Source: Paracoccaceae bacterium (lineage in GTDB: Bacteria; Pseudomonadota; Alphaproteobacteria; Rhodobacterales; Rhodobacteraceae). From it: a DNA stretch of 52,087 nucleotides. The notes beneath the pieces were generated by a model. The model was not told the DNA's origin. It did no database searches and saw only the letters and a program-made list of their open reading frames with translations. Positions 6,885-38,860 of this stretch are shown here, piece after piece (the stretch's first letter is position 1; each line of letters starts with the position of its first letter). A program made the translations under genes and the position numbers. The stretch is from contig REER01000085.1 of the NCBI GenBank assembly GCA_007694945.1, positions 1-52,087 of the forward strand, written 5' to 3'.

Positions 6885-7722
6885 TACAGACCTGCCGCTG
6901 ATCCTGCGCGGTGCGCCGGACACGACCGAATTTCGCAAGCTGCGCAAACGCATCATCCGTGAGACGCGGGCAGCGATAGAGCAATATGGCATGGTCGAGT
7001 CCGGTGCGCGCTGGCTCGTCTGCCTGTCGGGTGGCAAGGACAGCTACACACTGCTGGCCGCGCTGATCGAGCTGAAATGGCGTGGGCTGTTGCCGGTTGA
7101 TCTTCTGGCTTGCAATCTTGATCAGGGCCAGCCCGGGTTTCCGGCGACCGTTCTGCCCGAGTTCCTGACCCGGATGCAGGTGACCCATCGGATTGAGTAT
7201 CAGGACACCTATTCCATCGTGATGGACAAGGTGCCGCAGGGGCGGACCTATTGCGCGCTCTGTTCTCGGTTGCGGCGCGGCAACCTCTACCGCATCGCCC
7301 GAGAGGAAGGGTGCAGCGCAGTGGTGCTTGGCCACCATCGCGATGATCTGCTGGAAACCTTTTTCATGAATCTCTTCCACGGTGGGCGGCTGGCGACCAT
7401 GCCGCCCAAGCTGGTGAATGAGGAGGGGGATCTGTTCGTCTATCGTCCGCTGGCCTTTGTCGCTGAGGAGGATTGCGCCCGTTTCGCCCGCGCGATGAAC
7501 TATCCAATCATACCCTGCGATCTCTGCGGCTCGCAGGACGGGCTCCAGCGGATGCAGGTCAAGGCGCTGCTGGATGAATGGGAAAAGCGCAGCCCGGGGC
7601 GACGGAATGTCATGTTCCGGGCGCTGATGAATGTCCGCGCCTCGCATCTGCCCGACCCGGCGCTGTTCGACTTCATGGCGTTGGCCACAGGTGTCGCCGA
7701 TAGGAAGACCGATCAGATGTGA
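6874..7722 (+). CDS. ttcA: tRNA 2-thiocytidine(32) synthetase TtcA
   Basis: 282 residues from ATG 6874, chosen because AGGGAGAA sits about seven bases upstream. It is an adenylating PP-loop enzyme with SGGKDS (52-57) and the two Cys motifs that hold an iron-sulfur cluster: CALC in the middle and PCDLCGSQ later. TtcA thiolates C32 of a subset of tRNAs, including tRNA-Arg(ICG), in the cytoplasm. The window's own tRNA-Arg(ACG) at 2073-2149 has C32. The gene sits inside the rnpA-yidD-yidC cluster, overlapping yidD by 11 bases, so it is likely cotranscribed with it. Confidence 0.93.
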
Positions 7723-7821
7723 TCCGCTGTGCGCCGGATTGCGGGGAAAACTGCTTGACCTTTGGGCGGGGCTTCTGTTGAACCGGGCGCGACGCGCGTT
7801 GTGACAGGAAGACGCTTCCAT

Positions 7822-9588
7822 ATGGATGATCAGAACAGAAATCTGCTGCTGGCCTTCGCCCTGAGCCTTCTGGTGCTTGTGGGCTGGATGTGGATGTTCC
7901 CGCCGCCCGAGCCGCTACCAAGCGATGAAGCCGAGATCACCGAATTGCCGGTTGCCGAAGACGGTGACGCGCAGACCATGGCCGAGGCCGAAGCGCCCGA
8001 AGCCGAAGAACTTCCCCGGATCGAGATCGACACACCGCGCCTTACCGGGTCGATCAACCTGCTGGGCGGGCGCATCGACGAATTGCTGCTGCGCGATTAC
8101 TTCCGCACCACCGACCCTGACTCGGATATCGTGCAACTGCTGATCCCCGAGGGCGAGCGCGAAGCATTCTACGCGCTTTATGGCTGGCGCCCAGGCCGCG
8201 ACATGACATGGGATGACGTGCCCGGCGCGAATACACCATGGGAGTTGATTCAAGGCGAGCGGCTGGCTGTTGGCAGTCCGGTCACATTGGGCTGGACCAA
8301 TGACGCGGGTGTGGTCTTTACACAGCGTTTCGAGATTGACGAGAACTTCATATTCAGTGTGACCCAGTCGGTCGAGAACACGGGTGACACGACCGCGCGC
8401 ATGGCTCCCTACGGCCTGATCTCGCGCCATGGCGAGCCGTCAGACCTGGAAAACTTCTTTATCAGCCATGAGGGCTTCATTCAGATCGCTGACGGGCGGC
8501 TCGATGAGGACAGCTATCGCAATGTCCGGAATTTCAGCGTCCACGACCAGGAGCGCACCAATGCCCGGGTGACTGAGGTGGCCGAGAATGGCTGGCTCGG
8601 GATCACTGATAAATACTGGATGGCCGTCCTCGCACCCCAACCGGGGCAGAGCTTCACTGCCGTGTCTCGCTACATTCCCGCGCGCGATGTGTTCCAGACC
8701 CGTGCCGACCTGCCCACGATCACGGTCGGCCCGGGGGAGCGCGACGAGGTGCAGACCATGCTGTTTGCCGGGGCGAAGGAATGGAGTGTCATCCGCAACT
8801 ACGAGCGAGAACTGGGCATCGACCGCTTCATCGACGCGATCGACTGGGGCTGGTTCTTTTTCCTGACCAAGCCGATCTTCGCGACGCTGTATTTCATCAA
8901 CGGCATCATCGGGAATATGGGCTGGTCTATCATCACGTTGACCTTGCTGATCAAGGCCATCCTGCTGCCGCTGGCGTGGAAATCCTATGTGTCGATGGCC
9001 AAGATGAAAGAGCTTCAGCCCGAGATGCTGGCCATCAAGGAGCGCGCGGGTGACGACAGGCAGAAGATGCAGCAGGAGATGATGAAGCTCTACAAGGAGA
9101 AGAAGGTGAACCCGGCAGCGGGTTGTCTTCCCATCCTGTTGCAGATCCCGATCTTCTTCTCGCTCTACAAGGTGATCTTCGTCACCATCGACCTGCGCCA
9201 TGCCGAGTGGTTCGGGGTGTTCAATGACCTCTCTGCGCCCGATCCAACCTCGATCATGAACCTCTTCGGGCTGCTGCCATGGGCCGCGCCGCACCCCGAG
9301 AGCTTCCTGTCACTGATCTTCATCGGCATCCTGCCGATATGTCTTGGCGTGTCGATGTGGCTGCAGATGAAGCTGAACCCGACACCGACCGAGCCGATTC
9401 AGCAGGCGGTGATGACCTGGATGCCATGGATCTTCATGTTCATGCTGGGCTGGTTCGCCTCGGGTCTGGTGCTCTACTGGATCGCAAACAACGTGATCAC
9501 CTTTGCACAGCAGTATTCGATCATGGCGATGAACGGCTCGCGACCTGATTTGCTTGGGAATATCGGCGTGAAGAAAAAGAAGGGATAG
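7822..9588 (+). CDS. yidC: Membrane protein insertase YidC (Oxa1 family)
   Basis: 588 residues from ATG 7822 (MDDQNRNLLLAFALSLLVLVGW) with an AGGAAGA site upstream. An N-terminal helix (about 8-25) is followed by an acidic Glu/Pro-rich linker and the large periplasmic beta domain of Gram-negative YidC (about 70-340). The conserved insertase core then runs from about 345 to 570 with NPAAGCLPILLQIPIFFSLY and several further membrane helices. It ends in a basic KKKKG tail. It inserts and folds inner-membrane proteins, alone or with SecYEG. The length is normal for alphaproteobacteria. A 99-base gap separates it from ttcA. Confidence 0.97.
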   Translation: MDDQNRNLLLAFALSLLVLVGWMWMFPPPEPLPSDEAEITELPVAEDGDAQTMAEAEAPEAEELPRIEIDTPRLTGSINLLGGRIDELLLRDYFRTTDPDSDIVQLLIPEGEREAFYALYGWRPGRDMTWDDVPGANTPWELIQGERLAVGSPVTLGWTNDAGVVFTQRFEIDENFIFSVTQSVENTGDTTARMAPYGLISRHGEPSDLENFFISHEGFIQIADGRLDEDSYRNVRNFSVHDQERTNARVTEVAENGWLGITDKYWMAVLAPQPGQSFTAVSRYIPARDVFQTRADLPTITVGPGERDEVQTMLFAGAKEWSVIRNYERELGIDRFIDAIDWGWFFFLTKPIFATLYFINGIIGNMGWSIITLTLLIKAILLPLAWKSYVSMAKMKELQPEMLAIKERAGDDRQKMQQEMMKLYKEKKVNPAAGCLPILLQIPIFFSLYKVIFVTIDLRHAEWFGVFNDLSAPDPTSIMNLFGLLPWAAPHPESFLSLIFIGILPICLGVSMWLQMKLNPTPTEPIQQAVMTWMPWIFMFMLGWFASGLVLYWIANNVITFAQQYSIMAMNGSRPDLLGNIGVKKKKG

Positions 9589-9592
9589 CGGC

Positions 9593-10342
9593 TTGGGATG
9601 GCGGCTTGCGCATATTTTCCGCCACCCGATCAAGGCGCATGGGCGCGAGGCTTTGCCTCGCGCTCTGCTTGATACGGGCCATTGCCTCCCCTTCGACCGG
9701 CACTGGGCTGTCGCGCATGAAGCAGCGCAACTGATGCCGGGCTGGAATGCCTGCATGAACTTCACCCGCGGGGCCAAGACGCCCGCATTGCAAGCGATCA
9801 TGGCTGAATATGATGAGGGGTCAGGCGAGATGGCCCTGATCCATCCGTTATGCGAGACGCTGCGTTTCAATCCCGATACGCCCGAGGGGCAGGAAGCCTT
9901 TCTGAACTGGGTTGCGCCGCTCATGGCCGGCGGCCGGGCGCAGCCCGCCCGTCTGGTGAAGGCCGGCCGGGGAATGACGGACACGCCGTTTGAGTCTGTC
10001 TCGATCCTGAACCTGTCGTCTAATCGGGCCCTTGGCCAGCGCATCGGTCGCGACCTGGGTCTGGACCGCTGGCGGGCGAATCTGTGGCTTGACGGGCTGG
10101 CACCGTGGGAGGAATTCGACCTGATCGGGAAAGAACTGGTGATCGGTGGCGCTCGGCTGAAAGTGGTCGAACGGATCGGGCGGTGCCGTGCGACCATGGT
10201 GGATTGCGTGACAGGCCGGATCGATGTGGACACGCTCGACGCGCTGGAAGAAGGCTATGGCCATACCGATTTCGGGGTCTATGCCGAGGTGGTTTCCGGG
10301 GGCGCTATCGCCTGCGGCGACAGCGTGGCACTCGCCACATGA
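9593..10342 (+). CDS. MOSC-domain protein
   Basis: 249 residues. The start appears to be TTG 9593, five bases after the yidC stop, preceded by AAGGGA inside the yidC tail. No ATG is available until about residue 38. An MOSC N-terminal beta-barrel-like part (about 1-100, HIFRHPIKAHG) precedes the MOSC domain, where RIGRCRATMVD carries the Cys and the basic residues expected. MOSC proteins bind molybdenum cofactor or handle sulfur transfer, and this one's partner is unknown. Its stop overlaps the engB start (ATGA), so it belongs to the same transcript. Confidence 0.88.
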   Translation: MGWRLAHIFRHPIKAHGREALPRALLDTGHCLPFDRHWAVAHEAAQLMPGWNACMNFTRGAKTPALQAIMAEYDEGSGEMALIHPLCETLRFNPDTPEGQEAFLNWVAPLMAGGRAQPARLVKAGRGMTDTPFESVSILNLSSNRALGQRIGRDLGLDRWRANLWLDGLAPWEEFDLIGKELVIGGARLKVVERIGRCRATMVDCVTGRIDVDTLDALEEGYGHTDFGVYAEVVSGGAIACGDSVALAT

Positions 10343-10992
10343 GCACGCTCGCTTTTCCAGAGGCGCCCGCGCCGGATACCTATGCCGAGGAAGCAGGCCG
10401 CAAACTTCTGACTGGGCAGGTGGATTTCCTCAAAGGCGTGGTTGCGATGGACGGGATGCCGCCTGCCGACCGGCTCGAGGTCTGTTTCGCTGGCCGCTCG
10501 AATGTCGGCAAGTCGAGCCTGATTAATGCGCTGACCGGGCGCCGTGCGCTTGCGCGCACGTCGAACACGCCGGGTCGCACGCAGGAGATCAATTTCTTCA
10601 CTGTGGGCGAGAGCCGTTATCTGGTCGATCTGCCCGGCTATGGTTTCGCGAAAGCGCCGGTGCCCGTGGTCGAGAAATGGCAGCGGTTGCTGAAATCTTA
10701 CCTCGCAGGGCGCGCGATGCTGCGCCGCGCCTTTGTGCTGATCGACATGCGGCATGGGGTCAAGGATGTGGACCACGAGATCATGAAACTGCTCGACCAA
10801 TCCGCAGTGACCTTTCAAGTGGTGCTGACCAAGGCCGACAAGATTGGCGCCGCAGAACAGGCGCGGACGCTGGCGCAGGTGCGCGGGGCCTTGGCCAAGC
10901 ACCCGGCGGCCTATCCGGAACTGGTCGTCACCTCTTCCGAGAAGGGGGTCGGTATTCCGACCCTGCGCGCCATTATCTCCGGATTGGCATGA
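10339..10992 (+). CDS. engB: Ribosome biogenesis GTP-binding protein EngB/YihA/YsxC
   Basis: 217 residues. The GTPase motifs appear in order: G1 [10 protein letters not shown] (51-60), the G2 Thr in [13 protein letters not shown]3 DLPGYGFAK and G4 LTKADK, then a SSEKGVG G5-like segment. EngB is an essential GTPase needed for late assembly of the large ribosomal subunit. It is coupled to the MOSC gene by ATGA and is followed by argB after one base. Confidence 0.96.
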
Positions 10993-27975: not shown

Positions 27976-28625
27976 GGCAGGTGCCCGCGACACATGTGGC
28001 GCTTGCGCCCATAGCCTGGAATACGGCTTACTTCGAAACCAGCTGCCGCCAGCGCGCGCCGGACATGGCCCGCGGCGGTATAGGTCGCGAATGTGCCCCC
28101 AGTCGCGGTATGCGCCGCCACTGCAGCCATCAGTTCAGGTGTCCATAATTCCGGGTTCTTGGCGGGTGAAAACCCGTCCAGATACCAGGCATCCGCTTGC
28201 CCCTCCCAAGATGGCAAGGTCTCGCGGGCATCACCGAATATCAGCCGGACAGTGAAGGGGCCGAGCGCGAAGCGCTCGGCCCCCCAGTAATCGAGCAAAG
28301 GTGCCGGGTCCAGCGATGGGAAGGCCCGCAAGGCGCGCGCCATCTCATCCCGCGTCATCAGGAAAGCTTCAAAACTGGTGTAGAAGAATGGGCCGGAATG
28401 GTCGCGCAGGGCGTCAAACGTCGCCAGAAGATTAAGCCCGGTTCCGAAGCCCAATTCGGCAATGTGAAACCCTGCGCGTGCGCGGGCCGGCAGGTCATTG
28501 CCCTGCAGAAACACATGACACGCCTCCTCCAGCCCGCTTTCAAGCGAGTAATACGGGTCGTCGAAACGGGTCGAGACAGGTGTGCGCCCGTCTTTCCAGT
28601 CGAGTTGCGTGTGCTGGTCGTTCAT
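27972..28625 (-). CDS. mnmD: tRNA 5-methylaminomethyl-2-thiouridine methyltransferase (MnmD type)
   Basis: 217 residues, equal to the N-terminal (methyltransferase) half of E. coli MnmC. The SAM motif AELGFGTGLNLL and the active-site stretch WYLDGFSPAKNPELW are intact, followed by GGTFATYTAAGHVRRAL. It methylates nm5(s2)U34 to mnm5(s2)U34 in wobble tRNAs. The FAD half of MnmC appears to be encoded separately, head to head, at 28678-29715. A 52-base gap separates the two starts. Coupled to the DMT gene through ATGA. Confidence 0.94.
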   Translation of the reverse strand: MNDQHTQLDWKDGRTPVSTRFDDPYYSLESGLEEACHVFLQGNDLPARARAGFHIAELGFGTGLNLLATFDALRDHSGPFFYTSFEAFLMTRDEMARALRAFPSLDPAPLLDYWGAERFALGPFTVRLIFGDARETLPSWEGQADAWYLDGFSPAKNPELWTPELMAAVAAHTATGGTFATYTAAGHVRRALAAAGFEVSRIPGYGRKRHMCRGHLP

Positions 28626-28677
28626 GCCGCTCTACGTTATTGCTGCCTCGCATCACTCATGCAGAGGCGCTCGCGAA

Positions 28678-29715
28678 ATGACAATGCCGGATGTGACGAT
28701 CATGGGGGCCGGGGTGTTCGGCCTGACGCTGGCGCTCGCCTGTCTCGAGCGAGGCGCGCGGGTGCAGGTGATTGAAAAGCGCAGCCTTGGCGCGGGGTCA
28801 AGTGGCGGGGTTGTCGGTGCATTGGCGCCGCATGTGCCCGAGAACTGGAACACCAAGAAGGCGCTGCAATTCGACGCCCTGTGCTTGGCCGAAGACTATT
28901 GGGCGCGAGTAGCTTTGCTTTCCGGAATGGATCCAGGATATGCACGGCGCGGAAGGGTCCAGCCTGTGCCCGAGGGTGGGCTGGTGCGCGCAGAGGCGCG
29001 CGCGGGACAGGCGCGCAGTCTCTGGCAAGGGGTCGCGCAATGGCACGTCGTTCGGGTCGAAGAGGCACCGGGCTTGCCGCTGGTCGCGCCATCGGGATGG
29101 GTGATTCACGATACGCTAAGCGCGCGGCTCCATCCGCGGCGCGCCGGCGAAGCGCTCGCTGCGGCGATTGAGCAACTGGGCGGGCATCTCGTTATCGGAG
29201 ATAGTGCGCCTTCCGGGCGCGTTGTGTGGGCAACTGGCTATGAGGGGCTCGAGGCACTCTCTGCAGTCTTGGGCCGAAACGTGGGTGGCGGCGTGAAGGG
29301 GCAGGCACTTCTGTTGAAATATGCAGCGCCGGAGATGCCACAACTCTTCGCAGATGGCTTGCATATCGTGCCACATGCCGATGGCACTGTGGCCATCGGC
29401 TCGACCAGCGAGCGTGATTTCACCAGCCCCGACAGCATTGATGGGCAATGCGAAGCGCTGCATGCTCGTGCCCTTGAAATATGCCCTGCACTTCAAGGTG
29501 CGCCGGTGATTGCGCGCTGGGCAGGGGTGCGCCCGCGGGCCAAGAGTCGCGCTCCATTATTGGGGTCGTGGCCGGGGCGCGTGGGGCATTATGTGTTCAA
29601 CGGCGGGTTCAAGATCGGCTTCGCAATGGCGCCGGCACTGGCGCCGCTCATGGCGGAACTGGTCCTGGAGGGCGGCGATATCATTCCCGAAGAGTTCAGG
29701 CTCGAGGCCATGTAG
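28678..29715 (+). CDS. FAD-dependent oxidoreductase (DAO family), likely MnmC oxidase half
   Basis: 345 residues from ATG 28678. The N-terminal FAD loop IMGAGVFGLTLALACLERG and the DAO-type GAGSSGG are clear, and the C-terminal FNGGFKIGFAMAPALAPLMAELV is the closing FAD motif. By size and by its head-to-head neighbour mnmD it matches the C-terminal domain of E. coli MnmC, which removes the carboxymethyl group of cmnm5U34. An amino-acid oxidase (glycine oxidase/D-amino-acid dehydrogenase) is the main alternative. The last 127 bases overlap in antisense with the end of the giant glycosyltransferase gene. Confidence 0.85.
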   Translation: MTMPDVTIMGAGVFGLTLALACLERGARVQVIEKRSLGAGSSGGVVGALAPHVPENWNTKKALQFDALCLAEDYWARVALLSGMDPGYARRGRVQPVPEGGLVRAEARAGQARSLWQGVAQWHVVRVEEAPGLPLVAPSGWVIHDTLSARLHPRRAGEALAAAIEQLGGHLVIGDSAPSGRVVWATGYEGLEALSAVLGRNVGGGVKGQALLLKYAAPEMPQLFADGLHIVPHADGTVAIGSTSERDFTSPDSIDGQCEALHARALEICPALQGAPVIARWAGVRPRAKSRAPLLGSWPGRVGHYVFNGGFKIGFAMAPALAPLMAELVLEGGDIIPEEFRLEAM

Positions 29716-32700
29716 GATGCACAGAGTGCCTGCACCTTCGTGCACTGCGCGAGTGGTACAGAAAAACCGGGATGGAAAAGGGTTTCGCGGGCTTCGGCCC
29801 TTAGCGCAAGATAGGCGCGATATTCCTCGGCGTTGTTGAAATGCTCTCCCCGCGCGACTTCTTCCTCGGCCTTGGCCAGAAAGGCTGCATGGTATTTGAA
29901 ATGCGCAAAGGCCAGCTCACGCGTGGCGACCTTGGCGCCCGAGACGTAGTGCAGGCCCGCAGAGAGGCGCATGAGTGGTTGATATTTCAGCAGCGCGTAT
30001 TTCTGCGCCACAAAGAGATTGGCTCTCGCCGGTGTTCCCAGTTCCGCCATCAGGCGATGACGCAGGGCGCTGGTCAGTGTCTCGCCATTTGACCAGGGAC
30101 CACGTCCCTGCCAAGTGGCGCAGAGCGGGTGGCGGTCGATATGGTCTGCCTCGAGGAAAGGAGAGTGATCGAAACGCGCCTCGGCCAGTGGACCTCTGGG
30201 ATAAAGATCAAGCATCAGGAGCCGCACGGCGGTTGCCTTGGCGAAGTCTGGCGCGCTAAGCAGTTCCGGCAGATTGCCCAGAACGTGACCGTTCTGCTGG
30301 GGGAGTTGCCAGAATGCCAGTTCATCGGCATCGGCGAGCAGAGACCAGCGCCCCAGTCGGAACTGCGCCATCAGCGTTTCTTGCCACTGCACGCCATAAG
30401 TCGAGAGCCTGTAGGGCGTGTCGGTGGCGAAAACCGAGACATCCGGCTCGACCAACAACTGCTCCAGCGTGCCATCTTCGGAGCCATTATCCACAATCAG
30501 GAAGGCGCCGACTCCAAGGCGTCGATAATGCGCGAGGAAGTGGGGCAGCATGAAGCGTTCATTGCGCATGACGGCGATGACAGCGACCTCTGCCGCGCGG
30601 GCCTGCTCCAGCCGTTCCGCAGGGCTGATCAGGTCGAGTGCGTTCTTTGCCCAGCCAGTCTGGGCCGGCAGCATGCTGGGCCAGACTTTCATCGGGCTCG
30701 GCCAGACTGTACTACGCGCCGTGTTGGCCTGTCGCATGACGTTGCCGCCCGCATCCAGATGCGCCAGCTTGACAGGTGATCCAACAAACGGAAGGAAGCT
30801 GCTTTCGTATTGAGAGAGCGGCGGCAGTCCTTTCACCGTCCTCCTGAAAATCGAAACATCATAATTCGGGCCTGCTACAGCAATTCCGGCTTTTGCCAGC
30901 AGATCACCGACCAGCTTGTCCTCCATGAAAGAGACCTGCTCCAAGCGGCGACCTGGCGGTGACTTTCGGACCTCGGCTAGGGCTTTAAGCGCAGGTCTGG
31001 AGAGAAGATAGCCCGTGCTGCCATCGGCGTAGCGCGAGGGTTCAGGCGATTTGTCGAACTCCATGCGCCCCCGGGCTGTTTTCGAGCGCGACATATGCCA
31101 GCCGCGATCCATGCTACCATGCGCGCGATAGAGGGGCCGACCGTAATATGGCAGGGTCAGAAAGACCGGATCGTTGAAATAGGCTTTGGGATCGAGCAGG
31201 CAGTCGTCGTCAATCTTGAGAATCCGCGAGAAGTGGGTGCGTTCCAAAACCCATTGGGCCAGTGCGAGGGTCTTCTGTGGCAGGCCTTCATAGCTGTCGG
31301 GGGCATCGAGTTCGAGCAATCCGCCATCAAATCTTGGACTGCATTGGACTGGGTCTCCTTCCCCTTTTCCGACGACGGTGATCAGCGGGATGCTGAGCTT
31401 CGCAAGTGCCGAGCCCCAGGTGTCGCGGCACACGCGCGCCCGGGTCTCGAGGTTTTTTCGGCAGGAAATGAGTGCGACCAGTGTATCGGCGAACGGGTTG
31501 GCCATATTGTGCAATCGTGCGGCTTCAGGGTCTTCATCTGCCAATACTCTTGGTGTGGGAAACTCCTCGACATAGCGCGAGAGAGGTTCGCGAAGTGCTG
31601 GGTCTGGACAAGAAGAAACGAAGCGTTCGAGTGCTCGCGCAGGTGCATGGGCGCGAAGAGCCAATTTTGCGTCGATCTGATCGAGATGCTTTGCAAGCGC
31701 GGCAATCCATCTCTCGGCCAGGTCCCACGCGCCGTTGCGCGCGGCAGTTTCCGCAAGCGCGGTCAGTGCAGAAATGCCGATAAAACCTGCCTCTGGCCTT
31801 GTCGTGGCAAGGGCAAGGCGTGTGAGTTGCGCCGCATTGGTTGGGGTGACGGTGCCCTCTTTATTCAGTTGACGGAGTGCGTCATGCACATCAGCCGCAA
31901 GACGCGTTGATGTCTGGGTCATGGCGGGACGGGCAACGTCGCAAGCGGCCTTGCGCAATCCCCGGCACGCGGCTTTGTGAAGAGGTTCGGAAGCGCGCAG
32001 TGCAATCGCCTCACGTGCTGCATCACTGCGCGGGAAGGTCAGCCAGCGCAGCGCAGTCTCCTCGACCTCGATCTGCGTGAGGACAGGGGACAGATTCGTC
32101 AGATCAGGGCGCCCTGAAAACGCCCCTGGCGTGGAAGATGCCGAGAGTATCACACGGCGCAGCATCTCGTGGCCCGCGCATTTGCGCAGCAGAAAGGGAC
32201 GCGCGGCCTCCCAGAGAAAGGCGCCCTTGTCATGCTCCAGCGCGTTCTGCAGAGCTATGAAGGACCCGGCGCATTTCGCAAAGACCGGATGAAGTTGCAA
32301 CAGGTTCCGGCTGCGCATTTCGTCCCAGAAGTCCGGACACAGCCCGTAGGCCTGAACTACCAGTTCGACATACCAGTTCGAACACCAGTCGGGCAGATAG
32401 GGCAACTCGGCCAGAACATCCAAAACGCCCGAAATCAGGCGGCGGCACGGTGTCTGGGCCCAATAGGATGGTGCGAGTGCGGCGATCAACTCCAGCAGAC
32501 CGCTCATCAGCCTGAGGCGTTGATCAGCCGCTACATGCCGACCAAGTCTATCCGGCCAATTCTCCGCAAGCGCAGAGCCAAGCCAGCCCAGTGATGGCGT
32601 TACCAACCAGCCCGTTGAATTGCGCGGATAGGCACGAAGGGCCGCTTCGATTGCAGGCCACTTGCCCTGTGCCCAGAGCATAGGCAGGCCTGCGATGGAC

Positions 32701-33881
32701 GCCCACGGATTCGCACGGTCGTCCCAGCCCTGCGCGCCATGCCGTGCGGCCAGCGCTTCTAGTTCGAGCGGGTCATGATAAAGGCAGAACCACTCGCTCA
32801 GCATGAGGGCGAGTTGGCGCACTCGTTCGTAGTCGAGACCATGCTGCTTGATGAGGTCATCCAGAAGCGAAATGGCGTCGGTGGACGGTGAGAGCGCCAT
32901 CTTTTCATGTAAAAGGTCGCAGACCTCGGCTGCGGTCGTTTGACCTCTTTCAGGAGGAGGCGCCACCGCAGTACGACGGCATTCGGGCGCAACAGTGATG
33001 CCAATCTGCCTCGCTTCGGAGGTAAGCACGTTCCGGACAGGGTCGGGAAGACGGTCCCAAATCGCGGCGTGATGCGCATGCTCGATCATGTGCATACGGA
33101 TCAATCGGTCGTGCTGCATCTGCAGTAGCGCTTGCGGACTGGAAAGCCGATCCAGCAGTGTGCTCTTGTGCAATTTGACCGGTAGGTGCGTTGTTCCCGC
33201 TCGGACTGTGACACCTGTTACCCCATCTTGAGCCTCTTTCCAGATCCGACCGGGCAGCAATATATACTGCAAGCCTTCCAGATGTGGCGGTTCTGCTGAG
33301 GACAGCGGCAGTAATTCAAGAGGCTCATCTTCATCTTCGAGTTCCAGAACAGCGTGGTCTTTCGGTGCGCGCCAGAGTAGCTCGAGCCGCTCCGTCAGCA
33401 GAGGTTCCCTCAGCATTTCAGGCCTGAAATAGCGCATGCTGCAAACTCCCGCAGGCCAGTTTACAGACGCGATCTGCTTCAGATGCGGAAACCCACGTCG
33501 TATACCCTTCGGGCTCCCCGGATCGAACCGAGGATAGCTGTCCAGCCGTGCCAAATGACGCCCGTCGAGCCAAATCGAGGCAGAGGCTTTCCCAAGCAGG
33601 TCATCCTCGAACCCGATATGCAAGCTGTAGTTTCGAGACAGCAGTCCGGTTGCAAGCACCAATTCGCGACGCCATCCATTTGGACCGAATTGATTGGCAA
33701 TCAGGATCCCGGTGTCGCGCCGCAGCGACAAGTGCAAGGGTATCCAGCTTTGGCAACTTTCCATGAGATCGATATTGATGAAAGCCTGCGCGCGCAGGTC
33801 GATCTCAAGGCACAATATTGCCCCGTGGGACGCGCAGAGCCATTCGGCGTTCGGATCATCATGTTGGGTTACGTTGTCCAT
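29589..33881 (-). CDS. Giant galectin-like / GT31-like / GT2(GT92)-like glycosyltransferase
   Basis: 1430 residues, no signal peptide or obvious membrane helix. Residues about 15-150 look galectin-like: His50-x-Ser-x-Arg54, then Asn63, Trp70 and Glu73 at exactly the galectin spacing (N-x6-W-x2-E), and WLDGRHLARLD like the galectin V-N-G-x-H strand. About 160-790 is helical, Ala/Leu-rich, unrecognised. About 795-1005 is GT31-like: RARVCRDTWG, DSYEGLPQKT, Asp891-893 in KIDDDC, GSTGYLLSR and MEDKLVGD. About 1097-1370 is GT2/GT92-like: VMRNERFMLPHFLAHYRRLG, VDNGSEDGT, Asp1184-x-Asp1186. It would add two sugar types, probably in the cytoplasm. Its C-terminal 41 residues are antisense to the oxidoreductase gene and look unnatural. 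Follows the sulfotransferase gene after 46 bases. Confidence 0.85.
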   Translation of the reverse strand: MDNVTQHDDPNAEWLCASHGAILCLEIDLRAQAFINIDLMESCQSWIPLHLSLRRDTGILIANQFGPNGWRRELVLATGLLSRNYSLHIGFEDDLLGKASASIWLDGRHLARLDSYPRFDPGSPKGIRRGFPHLKQIASVNWPAGVCSMRYFRPEMLREPLLTERLELLWRAPKDHAVLELEDEDEPLELLPLSSAEPPHLEGLQYILLPGRIWKEAQDGVTGVTVRAGTTHLPVKLHKSTLLDRLSSPQALLQMQHDRLIRMHMIEHAHHAAIWDRLPDPVRNVLTSEARQIGITVAPECRRTAVAPPPERGQTTAAEVCDLLHEKMALSPSTDAISLLDDLIKQHGLDYERVRQLALMLSEWFCLYHDPLELEALAARHGAQGWDDRANPWASIAGLPMLWAQGKWPAIEAALRAYPRNSTGWLVTPSLGWLGSALAENWPDRLGRHVAADQRLRLMSGLLELIAALAPSYWAQTPCRRLISGVLDVLAELPYLPDWCSNWYVELVVQAYGLCPDFWDEMRSRNLLQLHPVFAKCAGSFIALQNALEHDKGAFLWEAARPFLLRKCAGHEMLRRVILSASSTPGAFSGRPDLTNLSPVLTQIEVEETALRWLTFPRSDAAREAIALRASEPLHKAACRGLRKAACDVARPAMTQTSTRLAADVHDALRQLNKEGTVTPTNAAQLTRLALATTRPEAGFIGISALTALAETAARNGAWDLAERWIAALAKHLDQIDAKLALRAHAPARALERFVSSCPDPALREPLSRYVEEFPTPRVLADEDPEAARLHNMANPFADTLVALISCRKNLETRARVCRDTWGSALAKLSIPLITVVGKGEGDPVQCSPRFDGGLLELDAPDSYEGLPQKTLALAQWVLERTHFSRILKIDDDCLLDPKAYFNDPVFLTLPYYGRPLYRAHGSMDRGWHMSRSKTARGRMEFDKSPEPSRYADGSTGYLLSRPALKALAEVRKSPPGRRLEQVSFMEDKLVGDLLAKAGIAVAGPNYDVSIFRRTVKGLPPLSQYESSFLPFVGSPVKLAHLDAGGNVMRQANTARSTVWPSPMKVWPSMLPAQTGWAKNALDLISPAERLEQARAAEVAVIAVMRNERFMLPHFLAHYRRLGVGAFLIVDNGSEDGTLEQLLVEPDVSVFATDTPYRLSTYGVQWQETLMAQFRLGRWSLLADADELAFWQLPQQNGHVLGNLPELLSAPDFAKATAVRLLMLDLYPRGPLAEARFDHSPFLEADHIDRHPLCATWQGRGPWSNGETLTSALRHRLMAELGTPARANLFVAQKYALLKYQPLMRLSAGLHYVSGAKVATRELAFAHFKYHAAFLAKAEEEVARGEHFNNAEEYRAYLALRAEARETLFHPGFSVPLAQCTKVQALCASYMASSLNSSGMISPPSRTSSAMSGASAGAIAKPILNPPLNT

Positions 33882-33927: not shown

Positions 33928-34617
33928 TCAGGTGGCGTGGGTGAGTCGCGTCCGCATCACATCATGCAGCCGCTCGCGAGAAGGGCTTCTTCCCAGAAGG
34001 TCGAAAAGCGGTTCGAGGGCGCTCTGGTCTGCGGTATAGGTGTCATAATGAAGCCTCACCGAGCAGTCCTGATGCGCTTTGGCAAATTGCGCAAAAACAG
34101 ATTCCGCAGAATGCATCATCTTTTCCACCTCGGCAGGGTCATGCTGCCGCCACCAGGACGACTTGACGACGGCAGCATGATTGCGCGTATTGAAGACAAA
34201 GCGCGCATTGGGAAAATGACCGTGAATGAACTCGAGATAGTCGAGGAATGTGTCTTCCCGTGCGATTGTTCTGATTTCCTTGAACCCACAGATACGGATA
34301 TCGGGTGGTGACCGCAGCACGTGACGGGCAAAGTTTGCGCAAAGGCTTGAGGCGTAGGCATGAGGATCAATCGCCTCGGCCCCGAACCACGGATGAGTGG
34401 GGTCAGAGACTTCGCCTGCGGCGACCATGCGACAGATATCAGGGCTGCGCACCAGCGCACGCCAACTTTTATACAGTGGAAACAATGCGTTGTTATTCTC
34501 ACCGCGCAGAAGGCAGCCGGGCAGGGCATTGATCACGTTCTGCAACAGTGTCGAGCCTGATCGACCGTAGGTGACGACAAAGACGTATCCCTCAACAGGG
34601 TGTCGAAACTCGGACAT
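33928..34617 (-). CDS. PAPS-dependent sulfotransferase family protein
   Basis: 229 residues. The 5'-phosphosulfate loop TYGRSGSTLL (16-25) and the 3'-phosphate motif FVFNTRNHAAVVKSSW are present, as in sulfotransferases that use 3'-phosphoadenylyl-sulfate. No signal peptide. It would transfer sulfate to a hydroxyl or amino group of a glycan or small molecule. The giant glycosyltransferase gene follows on the same strand after 46 bases, so a glycan acceptor is plausible. Divergent from the TPR/P-loop gene, across about 220-300 bases. Confidence 0.88.
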   Translation of the reverse strand: MSEFRHPVEGYVFVVTYGRSGSTLLQNVINALPGCLLRGENNNALFPLYKSWRALVRSPDICRMVAAGEVSDPTHPWFGAEAIDPHAYASSLCANFARHVLRSPPDIRICGFKEIRTIAREDTFLDYLEFIHGHFPNARFVFNTRNHAAVVKSSWWRQHDPAEVEKMMHSAESVFAQFAKAHQDCSVRLHYDTYTADQSALEPLFDLLGRSPSRERLHDVMRTRLTHAT

Positions 34618-34922: not shown

Positions 34923-35960
34923 TTGCGTCGGCGCGTGCGGAAGCGGCAAGCGCTTGGAGATATTCGGGTGGCGCGGGTCTATCTTGAGGCGTTGCACCAC
35001 CTGCAACCCAGCCCCGAGAGTGCGCTAGAGCTTGCGGCGCTGGATCGCCAGTGCCACGACTTTGCGCAAGGCCTCGCACTTTTGCGCGAAGCAGATGCGC
35101 GCTGGCCTGGTCGGGTTGACCTGCTCCGTGCTCAAGCAGAACTCGCGATGCTTGCCAAGGCATTCGAAGCGGCCGGTGAACTCTGGCAGCGGCTGATCAG
35201 TGAGGACGGGATGGCCGGGTCTTATCCTGTTTTGCGCAAGGTAGCCTGTCTGAGACAGATGGATAGGGAAGACGCGGCGCAGTGCCAGATCGCGGCTTGC
35301 GCTACCGCCCTTGAAGCACAGTTATCCAAGCACGCAGTAGAGCTTCTGCGCAACCCTGTCTCAAGTCGCGCTGCTCTTGTACCTGGGCTCTATCTAGTGA
35401 CGGGAAATAATGGGACCGGCAAGACAACGCTGGGGCATTTCCTGCAGGCTTTGGGATTTCACACGATAGATGCGGATATCGACATCGCGGCTTTTTGTGA
35501 CGGTCATCGCTGGGCGATCCTGCGCCACGATCTCAGCCGCGGTCGTCCCGAGATCGAAACGGGACTGCGCTGGCTCTGGCCGTGTGCAAGGTTTGAGGTG
35601 ACCTGTGGAGCCTTCGGAGATTTTGAGCGCGTGGTTTTCGTCATCGGGGGCTTCGGGCAGGCCGTCGCGCCCTATATCCATAGGTTTGACAAGGTCTTTC
35701 ATCTCACAGCGCCGACCGATGTAATCGCACGTCGGCTCGAGAAACGCGGGTCGCCTTCGCATCGCAAGGGGTCACCCGGTTATCGGTCTGCGTTGCGGCG
35801 GAATACGAAAGCCTCTTCTCCGCCATACCCGGCGTATATCATCAAGGCCGATCGGCCCGTCTGGGAAAGCTGCGAGGTGATTCTTGCTTCACTTGGCGCG
35901 CGGCCCTCGCAGGCCGCAAAACCCGTCCGTGCAGCATTGCCAATTTGTCCGACGGCATGA
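34923..35960 (+). CDS. TPR-like plus P-loop kinase-like protein, start uncertain
   Basis: 345 residues from TTG 34923, the first conventional start in frame. The open frame continues back to 34815 and its translation just after a strong Shine-Dalgarno (34826-34834) looks protein-like (SQSHIIEAPLPDLSWHRD), so the true N-terminus is probably about 27 residues longer. The first 140 residues form TPR-like helix pairs (LALLREADARWPGRVDLLRAQ). A Walker A loop LVTGNNGTGKTTLGHFL begins near residue 156, followed by IDADIDIAAF, and a region near residue 270 reading LEKRGSPSHRKGSPG that could bind nucleotide phosphate. It resembles shikimate/adenylate-type kinases. Substrate unknown. The gene is divergent from the sulfotransferase. 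Confidence 0.8.
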   Translation: MRRRVRKRQALGDIRVARVYLEALHHLQPSPESALELAALDRQCHDFAQGLALLREADARWPGRVDLLRAQAELAMLAKAFEAAGELWQRLISEDGMAGSYPVLRKVACLRQMDREDAAQCQIAACATALEAQLSKHAVELLRNPVSSRAALVPGLYLVTGNNGTGKTTLGHFLQALGFHTIDADIDIAAFCDGHRWAILRHDLSRGRPEIETGLRWLWPCARFEVTCGAFGDFERVVFVIGGFGQAVAPYIHRFDKVFHLTAPTDVIARRLEKRGSPSHRKGSPGYRSALRRNTKASSPPYPAYIIKADRPVWESCEVILASLGARPSQAAKPVRAALPICPTA

Positions 35961-36259: not shown

Positions 36260-38860
36260 TCAGACAATGTCGATATGATTAACAAGGACGTGGAGGTCAT
36301 TGATCCCGGCGAGCGTGAGCGTGTCGCCGGTTTCGAAAGCAAGGACCGTATCAGCGCCTGCGGGCGACGAATAGGAATCGACGACCTGCGTTTCGCTCAA
36401 GACCCCGCTCCAGAGATTTTGATCTAGCTGCAGCCGGTCATCGTCGCTGAAAGTGAAATCAAGGATCAGTGCGGTCTCGTCTCCGGCCATGAAGATGAAG
36501 ATATCCGCGCCGCTCCCACCGAACATGGTGTCATCGCCGGGGCCACCATGCAGCACGTCATCGCCCGGCCCGCCATGGAGGTAATCATTCCCCGCACCGC
36601 CGAAGAGCGTGTCATTCCCGTCCATGCCCCAGAGCACATCATCGCCCGGCCCGCCATAGAGCACATCCTCGCCCATGCCGCCGTAGAGGGTGTTATTACC
36701 GCCACCGCCATAGATCGTGTCATTGCCGCGTCCGCCGCCGATCCGGTCATCGCCCGAGCCACCATAGATGATGTCGTCCCCATCCATGCCCCAGAGTGCA
36801 TTGTCGCCCGCTGTCCCATGGATCGTGTCATCTCCCAGACCACCATAGATCGTGTCATGGCCCGGCCCGCCGACCAGCAGATCATCACCCGGCCCGCCGC
36901 CGATGCGGTTATTACCCATATCGCCGTAAATCGTGTCATTGCCTTCGCCGCCCCAGAGCCGGTCATTTCCGGGACCGCCATAGATCAGGTCATCACCATC
37001 TCCACCAAATATGGTGTCGTGACCCGGTCCACCCAGCAATGAGTCATTGCCCGGCCCGCCATGGATAAGATCATTCCCGGCCCCGCCGTCGATGTAGTTG
37101 TCGCCGCGCCCGCCATGGATCGTGTCACGCCCGGCCGTGCCTGTGACCATGTTATTCCCGTCACCGAGATAGAGCCGGTGGAAGGGGGTTTGCAGCTCGG
37201 CCAGATGCAGCCCGTCGATCTCAAAACTGCCTCCGATCGCGAGACTCAGCTCGACATCGCCTGTGACCGCTGCAAGGTTCAGCCATTCGCCGGGCGCCTG
37301 CGCGGCAAGCCCGGCGACAGTGCCGGATGTGGAAACTATCCGCGTAAGCTCATCCGTGATGTGATGCACATTGACCGGATTTGTCGTGCCATGCAGGGTC
37401 AGTTCTGCCGCCGTCAAGCTGCCTGTGGCACCGGGGGTTTCGTCCTCGATCACAAGCTGCCAGACCCCTTGGGCATTTGTGCCCTTCACGCCGACAATTG
37501 TGAACAGCCAATCGAACCCGTTCGACATCAGCGTCCCGCCCCCTTCGCGGGACATCAGCATGAAGCGGTTGCCGTGGGGGTCTTCGATATGGATACTCAG
37601 ATCCTCGGCGCGGGCATGGGTGAGGCTGATCGCGACCTCTACCGTGTCGAGGCGCAAGCTTTCACTGACCTCGAAGGAAATGGTGGTCGCGATGGGACCT
37701 GTCACGGTCGCATCAGGTATGGCAAGCGCTGGTCCTGAATACTCGAGCGAGAGGCTGGTTTCATTGTCGCTGGTCTGTGTTTCCGGCATCAGCACGGCCC
37801 AGGCTTCGGCCATGCGGACACTGGCATGAGCATCGACCATGCCGAAGCCATGCGAAAGATGATAGCTGAGCCCACCACCGTTCCAGTTCTCGGCGCCGTT
37901 GCGCATCCACGTCCCTTGCTCATGCGCACCGGGCGCGGCGCCGAAGTCAGAGCCCGTGTGACTGGCCGAGAGCGCGAGGATCTGATGCACATCGCGCCAG
38001 CCCAGATCAGGATTGGCCTCGAGAATCAGCGCGATGACACCGGAGGTGACGGGAGCCGCGGCCGAAGTTCCGCCAAAGCTGTTGGTATAGCCATTGCCCG
38101 TGCCCGGCAGGATGGTGGTGACACTGCCTGCGGGCGCGGTGATCAGGATGTTCGAACCAAAATTGGAGTACCAGGCCGGCGCGCCGCTCGGTCCCGCGGC
38201 GGCAATCGAGATGGTGTGCCGCGCAACGTTGAGCGCATCGCCCTGCGCGTTGAGCGTATCATTTCCCGAGGCCTGAACGATCAGCGTACCAAGCCCATCG
38301 CGCCCGTTGCCCGAAATTTCTTCAAAGAGCTCAGCAATCAGGAACTGACTGTTGAAAGGCGAGACCGGGGACTGCCAGATCTGATATTCTGGGCTCACAC
38401 CCCAGCTATTGTTCTTGATGTCAAAGCTGCCCGCATGCTGGATAGATCCCAGTAGCGTGGACAACCCTCGATGCTGGATATCCTCCAGAAAATTCACCCC
38501 GGTCAGGCTTACCTCCGGCGCAACGCCTGTGCCGCCTATACCATTGCTGCCCACCATGCCGATCAGCCCGGCAACGGCTGTCCCGTGACTGTCGAGAGAT
38601 GAAAGTGGGTAGGGGTCGTAGGTGGTACCCCCCCAAGTGAAATGCAGGTCGCTGCGGTAGTTCGCGGCTATGTCGGGATGGTCATATGCGATGCCGTCAT
38701 CATAAACCCCGACTGTGACGCCCTTGCCTGTATAGTCTTCCCAGACAGCGGTGATGGCTCCGATCAGCCCAAAATGCCATTGTTGCGCGAAAAGTGGATC
38801 GTTCGGGTTCGTCACAACGAAAACTCCAGAGAAAGGCTGCAGCGGCTGGGCAAGGGTCAA
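36260..38860 (-). CDS. Kexin-like subtilase with P domain and RTX repeats
   Basis: 866 residues. The start appears to be TTG 38860 behind AGCAGG. There is no signal peptide, as expected for type I secretion through a C-terminal RTX signal. A kexin-type S8 protease fills about 15-360: Asp54 in VYDDG, His92 in DSHGTAVAG, oxyanion Asn200 and Ser266 in FGGTSAAAP. The N-terminal [11 protein letters not shown] is typical of kexin/proprotein-convertase subtilases. A P/Homo-B domain follows (about 385-500, with [21 protein letters not shown]). Then come a linker, the RTX block of about 24 nonapeptides (about 566-786) and a C-terminal tail of about 80 residues. It is probably a calcium-dependent secreted protease. 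No type I exporter gene is in the window. Confidence 0.93.
36503..37165 (-). repeat. RTX nonapeptide repeat block (about 24 units)
   Basis: Within the subtilase gene about 24 consecutive nine-residue units of the type G-G-x-G-x-D-x-h-x (such as [18 protein letters not shown]) occupy 663 bases. Each pair of units would form a calcium-binding beta-roll turn. Some units carry Asn or His in place of Asp, and one has DMG at the Gly pair. Because units are only 27 bases and similar, the block is prone to unequal recombination and assembly collapse. Confidence 0.9.

Follow-up and report, generated by a model that had tools for sequence, protein, structure and literature searches.

The window comprises 52,087 nucleotides of contig REER01000085.1 (assembly GCA_007694945.1, Paracoccaceae bacterium). 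An open reading frame on its minus strand runs from position 33881 down to 29589, starts with ATG and encodes a protein of 1430 amino acids. From the N-terminus, and with all coordinates on the minus strand, this protein consists of a galectin-like domain (residues ~18–165, 33387..33830), a small β-rich domain (~166–245, 33147..33386), an α-helical array (~246–790, 31512..33146), a GT31-like glycosyltransferase domain (~795–1005, 30867..31499), a GT2 (Glyco_tranf_2_4) domain together with its C-terminal part (~1090–1388, 29718..30614) and an overlapping tail with the stop codon (1389–1430, 29589..29717). A preliminary description of this DNA had named three of these, galectin, GT31 and GT2; all three are upheld, the first by a structural model and a profile, the others by the Pfam families PF01762 and PF13704. 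No membrane anchor is found at the N-terminus of the protein (the 19-residue Kyte-Doolittle mean peaks at 1.16), and its predicted location is the cytosol.

The tail (residues ~1389–1430) is the antisense overlap with the 3' end of a convergent gene for an FAD-dependent oxidoreductase (28582–29715, PF01266). The alignment of many homologs stops at about residue 1388, and the letters of the tail recur alone in genomes of the genus that do not carry the 1430-residue gene. Thus, the last 42 residues are ruled out as a conserved domain.

On the same strand, 46 bases upstream of the fusion gene, lies its conserved partner, a sulfotransferase gene (Sulfotransfer_3, 33928..34617, minus strand; PF13469, E 9.5e-12). 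Beyond it, at 34923..35960 on the plus strand, a divergently oriented gene matches the P-loop kinase-like family AAA_18 (PF13238, E 4.7e-7).

Residues 14–245 were modelled by AlphaFold2 with a pLDDT of 88.7. Structure prediction of the N-terminal part had been proposed earlier as a check, and a galectin fold was obtained. Among the 50 PDB matches listed for this model all are galectins, with TMt values of up to 0.74 (galectin-7). A family profile detects PDB galectins with a best E-value of 3.2e-11. PF00337 (cut-off 22.1 bits) does not match the window protein itself, and phmmer of this protein against the PDB does not detect a galectin. Pfam and phmmer are therefore blind to the window galectin, and the family profile and the structural model are needed. 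In relatives, hmmscan with PF00337 gives scores above the cut-off for L034 (32.1 bits), L035 (24.6) and L066 (23.4), scores of 15.0–21.4 bits for L013, L062, L063, L070, L072 and L086, and no match for L003, L022 and L068. In a genome search with the same family, 10 of 394 genomes pass and none of the 14 control genomes is matched; the same loci score above their hmmscan values in this search. Judged by model and profile, the N-terminal domain is of the galectin type.

The sugar-binding residues proposed in the preliminary description, His50, Ser52, Arg54, Asn63, Trp70 and Glu73, are located at these positions, and the V-N-G-x-H-like strand is likewise present, as I103-W-L-D-G-R-H-L. The window protein contains a single match to a loose galectin-type pattern; of 20000 shuffled versions of its sequence, 14 match it as well. 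Asn36, His50, Leu51, Ser52, Arg54, Gly58, Asn63, Trp70 and Glu73 are invariant in an alignment of 10 sequences, in which the other members are 31–60% identical to the window protein and which does not include L016 and L017. The pattern of His50, Arg54, Asn63, Trp70 and Glu73 recurs in 12 of 14 further members.

These five residues correspond to His44, Arg48, Asn61, Trp68 and Glu71 in galectin-1 numbering. Two further galectin-1 site residues are Asn46 and Arg73; their counterparts in the window protein are Ser52 and Val75. Across the family the Asn46 position is occupied by Ser, with Glu in L016 and L017 (both from the genus of the window) and Ala in L080 and L081. At the Arg73 position, the rows covering the region have V, S, P, I or Q. 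Neither galectin-1 residue is kept in the window protein or in the other rows covering this region, and L016 additionally has Ser in place of His50. Because Asn46 and Arg73 are not kept and His50 is gone in L016, sugar binding may be changed or lost.

The middle of the protein is mostly α-helical according to DSSP on the model, with the small β-rich domain preceding the array. Pro210, Gly211 and Trp214 of the small domain are invariant in the 10-sequence alignment, and dN/dS comparison shows it to be fast-evolving: against L023 its dN/dS is 0.97, which is near neutral, and that of the galectin domain is 0.42. Against L021, values of 0.11–0.22 are observed in four of the five domain regions. 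Identity to L021, L003 and L022 is 47–52% in the galectin domain and 73–78% in the GT2 domain. The helical array has no Pfam name. Foldseek returned weak TPR/ARM-type superhelix matches for it (E 4e-3 and worse), and since these are unspecific the array is left nameless.

PF01762 (GT31) matches residues 816–1002 with an E-value of 1.8e-8 and 34.9 bits (cut-off 23); the relatives L034 (21.2 bits), L022 (17.9) and L065 (20.0) stay under the cut-off. The GT31 marks noted previously are invariant in the 10-sequence alignment (Tyr864, Glu865, Lys870, the DDD motif at 891–893, Gly954, Tyr958, Glu987 and Asp988). A profile of this part finds B3GalT6 (1.9e-5) and B3GalT5 (0.0023). The check proposed earlier for a GT-A fold in this part gave human B3GalT6 as the best Foldseek match (prob 1.00, E 2.8e-3), on a model that is poor in its later part, with long stretches of pLDDT <50. 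PF13704 (Glyco_tranf_2_4) matches residues 1106–1189 with an E-value of 1.3e-19 and 70.9 bits (cut-off 27.5). The 1149-residue model has no usable GT2 fold, with pLDDT <50 over long stretches, so the GT2 assignment rests on Pfam and on conserved residues. Invariant columns are dense in this region, and they include D1184-A-D-E1187 and others of the GT2 marks described before.

The sulfotransferase gene adjoins the fusion gene in all 16 genus loci tested, and of 14 genus loci compared, 12 also have the P-loop AAA_18 gene close by. Only two PF13469 matches are present in the genome of the window (3.18 Mb), one of them being the gene adjoining the fusion. Marine strains with sequenced genomes, among them Thalassococcus sp. 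S3, Sulfitobacter and Tropicibacter oceani, carry relatives. Counted with profiles, sulfotransferases of more than one family lie within ~2.1 kb at 11 of the 13 marine loci; the profile search detected no sulfotransferase in the 20 kb of L034 and L066. Marine relatives are found on plasmids, and several of them have ABC exporters alongside. The four plasmid loci examined yielded ABC export genes (three loci), glf (two), rhamnose genes (two), galE (one) and GDP-fucose genes (one). In marine relatives, a GT2-GT2 protein either precedes the fusion in the same chain or is encoded next door. Neither an exporter nor a GT2-GT2 gene is seen beside the fusion gene in the clustered genus loci (window, L021, L024 and L027), and the best GT2-GT2 match in the genome of the window covers only residues 5–346 of 622. 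RTX or calcium-binding proteins are encoded near several loci. The paralog L065 has no galectin domain. In a second alphaproteobacterial family, a galectin is fused to other glycosyltransferases (GT2 and GT25 domains).

With little more than even confidence, we read the 1430-residue protein as a soluble multi-domain glycosyltransferase of the cytosol that acts in making a sulfated polysaccharide or glycoconjugate of the cell surface, with the galectin holding the chain. The GT31 and GT2 domains would each add one sugar onto the growing chain. The galectin domain would grip a β-galactoside (or similar) unit of this chain and keep it near both catalytic domains across the helical scaffold; sulfation of the product would fall to the neighbouring sulfotransferase. 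Of this reading, the domains are shown, as are the largely retained site residues, the adjoining sulfotransferase and, for several marine relatives, a capsule-export setting; we infer the ligand, the donors, the linkages, the holding role of the galectin and the cytosolic location. The functional part of the preliminary interpretation, binding of the protein's own galactoside product and construction of an alternating glycan, is likewise conjectural, and its domains and its plant parallel stand; the adjoining sulfotransferase, the capsule setting of relatives and the overlapping tail go beyond it.

An unlikely but serious alternative is an enzyme that decorates a glycoprotein or the lipopolysaccharide core and is no polymerase. 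Each glycosyltransferase domain would then add one residue, with the galectin docking a galactose-bearing acceptor. This would suit the genus loci, where the gene travels with the sulfotransferase, and usually with the P-loop gene, and no exporter is seen beside it, as well as the RTX or calcium-binding proteins near several loci; the ABC export genes in most of the four plasmid loci argue against it.

Slightly less probable is a galectin domain that is a structural relic or a protein-protein contact, a fold without sugar binding in an enzyme that does not read its product. The fast divergence of the domain relative to GT2, the altered Asn46, Arg73, His50 and Ser52 positions described above and the galectin-free paralog point in this direction. 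However, five site residues, His50, Arg54, Asn63, Trp70 and Glu73, stay invariant in the 10-sequence alignment as the remainder of the domain diverges, and the further members largely retain them. In addition, H-x-S-x-R is present in the first domain of the Toxascaris galectin according to the alignment, and for a mutant of this galectin a structure with glucose exists, going by its title. That a generic jelly-roll resembles galectins merely by chance, for which only the missing PF00337 match to the window protein speaks, is extremely improbable given the profile E-value, the exclusively galectin structures among the 50 listed, the relatives above the Pfam cut-off, the site residues and the unmatched control genomes.

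Animal galectins are stand-alone lectins as far as is known. Those of Toxascaris leonina, GRIFIN, galectin-7 and galectin-8 have the same fold and the H, R, N, W and E site residues, whereas the window galectin is fused to enzymes and does not keep the Asn46 and Arg73 positions. Human B3GalT6 and B3GalT5, GT31 β-1,3-galactosyltransferases and the top profile and fold matches of the GT31-like part, share the DDD motif with it; to our knowledge, they have no lectin domain, helical array or GT2 domain. The two-headed polysaccharide synthases KfoC and CHSY carry two glycosyltransferase domains per chain and make a repeating polymer. The window protein, a putative polymerase by this comparison, has another combination of these domains and a lectin domain. 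In GALNTs, a ricin-type lectin domain steers the catalytic domain and reads the earlier product. The idea of steering by a lectin is the same, but GALNTs have another lectin fold, another glycosyltransferase family and a protein acceptor.

The parallel with plant galectin-GT31 enzymes drawn in the preliminary description is apt. Plant GALT1–GALT6, hydroxyproline O-galactosyltransferases and the Lewis-a enzyme GALT1, share with the window protein a galectin and a GT31 domain in one chain. An excerpt of PMC4687291 describes PF00337 and PF01762 in one polypeptide and the GALT proteins as predicted type II Golgi membrane proteins; an excerpt of PMC4908140 gives the role of the galectin within plant GT31 enzymes as an open question. 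In contrast to the plant enzymes, the window protein is 1430 residues long and lacks a hydrophobic segment; it carries a helical array of ~550 residues before GT31 and a second glycosyltransferase domain, and its gene has a sulfotransferase neighbour.

A wider form of the preferred reading, the glycosyltransferase whose galectin holds a sulfated chain, is offered tentatively. Bacterial galectins may be product-reading modules of polysaccharide-building enzymes that, in the cytosol, grip a nascent (sulfated) chain with galactose and set processivity or sulfation-dependent length. They would have arisen at least twice, with GT31 and GT2 in Rhodobacteraceae and with GT2 and GT25 in the other alphaproteobacterial family, and by analogy this might explain the galectin of plant GALT enzymes.

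In most accounts, galectins count as lectins of eukaryotes, with animals, fungi and plants as their best-known sources. Among the matches listed from the open-access literature, no title or abstract opening gives an account of a bacterial galectin-glycosyltransferase fusion. Such a protein offers a simple setting in which to study the role of a lectin as part of an enzyme. Since the bacterial galectin-GT31 protein is predicted to be soluble, has an adjacent sulfotransferase and has relatives in sequenced strains, the question of the plant GALT galectin becomes testable. The fusion gene probably helps to build a sulfated sugar coat. It also draws attention to a class of sulfated bacterial glycans that has been studied little, and to a possible source of enzymes for them.

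The galectin-glycosyltransferase gene is read from the minus strand between 33881 and 29589 and encodes 1430 amino acids. Pfam names two domains in the protein, both above the curated cut-off: Galactosyl_T of the GT31 family (PF01762, residues 816–1002, E 1.8e-8) and Glyco_tranf_2_4 (PF13704, residues 1106–1189, E 1.3e-19). The galectin family PF00337 was not matched by this protein in the Pfam search, and the NCBIfam search gave no weighty match. An AlphaFold2 model of residues 14–245, calculated from 13 sequences without templates, has a mean pLDDT of 88.7. Each of the 50 PDB matches listed for it is a galectin or galectin domain, among them Toxascaris galectin (1.6e-7) and galectin-7 (TMt up to 0.74). 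The model thereby supports the galectin fold predicted for the N-terminal part in the preliminary description. A profile derived from the same 13 sequences finds galectins on top of the PDB sequences (best 3.2e-11). By hmmscan, PF00337 (cut-off 22.1 bits) is exceeded in the relatives from Aliiruegeria haliotis (L034, 32.1 bits) and Thalassobius vesicularis (L035, 24.6 bits) and in L066 (23.4 bits), is matched below the cut-off in L013, L062, L063, L070, L072 and L086 (15.0 to 21.4 bits) and is not found in L003, L022 and L068. The genome search with PF00337 gave higher scores, over the cut-off, for some loci also run by hmmscan.

The motif residues named in the preliminary description are present where it had placed them. 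Asn36, His50, Leu51, Ser52, Arg54, Gly58, Asn63, Trp70 and Glu73 are invariant in an alignment of ten sequences, whose members are 31–60% identical to the window protein. Of 14 further members, 12 show the pattern H-x-S-x-R...N...W-x-x-E. The other two are L065, a paralog without the galectin domain, and L086 (Palleronia), which does not match the pattern, yet its galectin region is aligned by tblastn at 31%. The H-x-S-x-R part also occurs, as H-I-S-V-R, in the aligned first domain of Toxascaris galectin, for which, according to the structure title, a glucose-bound structure of a mutant exists. Two classic positions, Asn46 and Arg73 in galectin-1 numbering, are replaced: the former by Ser, Glu or Ala (Ala in L080 and L081 of a second fusion family), the latter by Val, Ser, Pro, Ile or Gln in bacterial family members. 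In a 22-row alignment the position of Ser52 is occupied by Glu in L016 and L017 and that of His50 by Ser in L016; these two loci are natural variants of the putative binding site. Their cassettes, like those of L097 and L098, are located at a different chromosomal site within the genus. About 320 extra residues, without a Pfam match at 0.01, precede the galectin domain in L063 (7712–12760) and L070 (7514–12682).

In structure models, a small β-rich domain (residues 166–245) is followed by an α-helical part (residues 246–790), for which TPR/ARM-like superhelices come up as weak, unspecific matches. The top fold match of the GT31 part is human B3GalT6 (probability 1.00, E 2.8e-3); by sequence profile, with E values up to 1 considered, it matches B3GalT6 (1.9e-5) and B3GalT5 (0.0023). 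There is no evident membrane anchor, since mean hydropathy over 19 residues peaks at 1.16. Compared with L021, where dS is near saturation, dN/dS is 0.16 for the galectin domain, 0.49 for the small β-rich domain, 0.22 for the helical part, 0.16 for GT31 and 0.11 for GT2. The values for the first three against the close relative L023 are 0.42, 0.97 and 0.26. The L065 paralog (7016–10624) comprises the helical, GT31-like and GT2 parts, sits on the contig of the Thalassococcus-type plasmid (G360:C3) and provides a natural control for the role of the galectin domain.

Residues ~1389–1430 (29589–29717) overlap by 127 bases with the convergent gene of a FAD-dependent oxidoreductase (28582–29715, PF01266). 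The alignment of many homologs ends at about residue 1388 and the tail letters occur alone in genomes of the genus lacking the gene; hence, the tail mirrors the conserved opposite strand and not the protein. Since the overlap is retained in several relatives and the alignment of others stops at ~1388, an earlier stop was probably lost.

A Sulfotransfer_3 gene is located 46 bases upstream. Each of the 16 genus loci tested has a sulfotransferase adjoining the gene (the window, L003, L007, L012, L013, L016, L017, L021–L028 and L031; the upstream side is absent in L018, L029, L030, L032 and L033, and the other L001–L020 loci represent the same contigs a second time). The genome of the window has two PF13469 matches in 3.18 Mb, Stf0-type genes excluded. 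Among 13 marine loci (L034, L035, L062–L064 and L066–L073), 11 contain a sulfotransferase within ~2.1 kb, and none is present in 20 kb of L034 and L066. These enzymes are of the window's type, of the Stf0 type (PF09037; L062, L068) or of a group hit by PF13469 and PF09037 alike. The further plasmid loci L083 and L086 each contain a sulfotransferase. In 12 of the 14 genus loci inspected, which do not include L003 and L023, a P-loop gene adjoins the sulfotransferase. In the window this divergent gene (34923–35960) has a kinase-like domain and possibly encodes a glycan or nucleotide kinase; it is absent where the cassette sits elsewhere. The window also encodes a subtilase with a P domain and 11 RTX stretches (36263–38860), and RTX or calcium-binding proteins are also found near several cassette relatives. 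Elsewhere in the same genome, L077 (7310–12842) contains two genes of GT2 type with a relationship to the C-terminal domain. The start of the gene after them is sulfotransferase-like by eye, and Pfam names no sulfotransferase there; we read L077 as another polysaccharide locus.

Within the genus, a match extending past the GT2 domain is present in 20 of 36 genomes; the usual site of the cassette is next to the FAD oxidoreductase gene. The cassette is absent from this site in all ten genomes chosen for lacking it there (flanking genes listed for eight). Two of these, G025 and G019, carry it beside ftsH-like and tilS-like genes (by eye), with two sulfotransferases. PF00337 exceeds the cut-off in 10 of 394 Rhodobacteraceae genomes (nearly one per genus), 2 of 385 of the class sample, 1 of 378 of the phylum sample (a Rhodobacteraceae genome already found) and none of 14 control genomes. 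In nine of the ten family genomes the match falls in relatives of the window protein. The tenth, L042, has no BLAST match to it; its 554-residue frame (47–1708), which may be cut or shifted, contains H-L-S-I-R, N and W-G-T-E and is a possible third galectin context in the family. A galectin-plus-middle profile detects 15 of the 394 genomes at E 1e-3, with a profile coverage of at least two thirds in 12 of them, the window's own included.

Related architectures were found as well. Two additional GT2 stretches are fused N-terminally in L035, L068 and L086, the alignment spans the same 2000 residues in L067, L071, L073 and L083, and in L034 and L064 the GT2-GT2 pair is encoded by a separate adjoining gene. 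Two genomes of one genus from another alphaproteobacterial family each join GT2 and GT25 to a galectin domain (37.1 and 31.2 bits) in a single protein (L080, 8474–12142; L081, 4701–8531), with a KfiA-like stretch detected by tblastn. No BLAST match to the Rhodobacteraceae protein was obtained at 1e-8; this is a second, different galectin-glycosyltransferase fusion.

Galectin and GT31 domains are combined in plant GALT1-6, as described in PMC4687291, and a review poses the role of the galectin domain in GALT2-6 as a question (PMC4908140). Literature searches on galectin gave no bacterial counterpart of the fusion among the matches listed. We rate it as known domains in a bacterial combination for which these matches hold no printed precedent.

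Marine relatives occur on plasmid records of Tropicibacter oceani, two Sulfitobacter strains, Thalassococcus sp. S3 and Palleronia sp., named 'glycosyltransferase' or 'glycosyltransferase family 2 protein'. Sulfotransferases are present in all four plasmid loci read, ABC export genes in three, glf and rhamnose genes in two each, and galE and GDP-fucose genes in one each. Extending this context to the window is weakened, since neither an exporter nor a GT2-GT2 gene was visible next to the gene in the four clustered genus loci, and the search of the window's genome gave no full-length GT2-GT2 partner. Two catalytic domains and a lectin, together with the dedicated sulfotransferase, suggest that the product is a sulfated surface glycan, which would be built in the cytosol; its donors, linkages and chain length, like the ligand of the lectin, are what we infer. 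Most likely, the lectin would hold on to the acceptor or the growing chain by a galactose-type unit.
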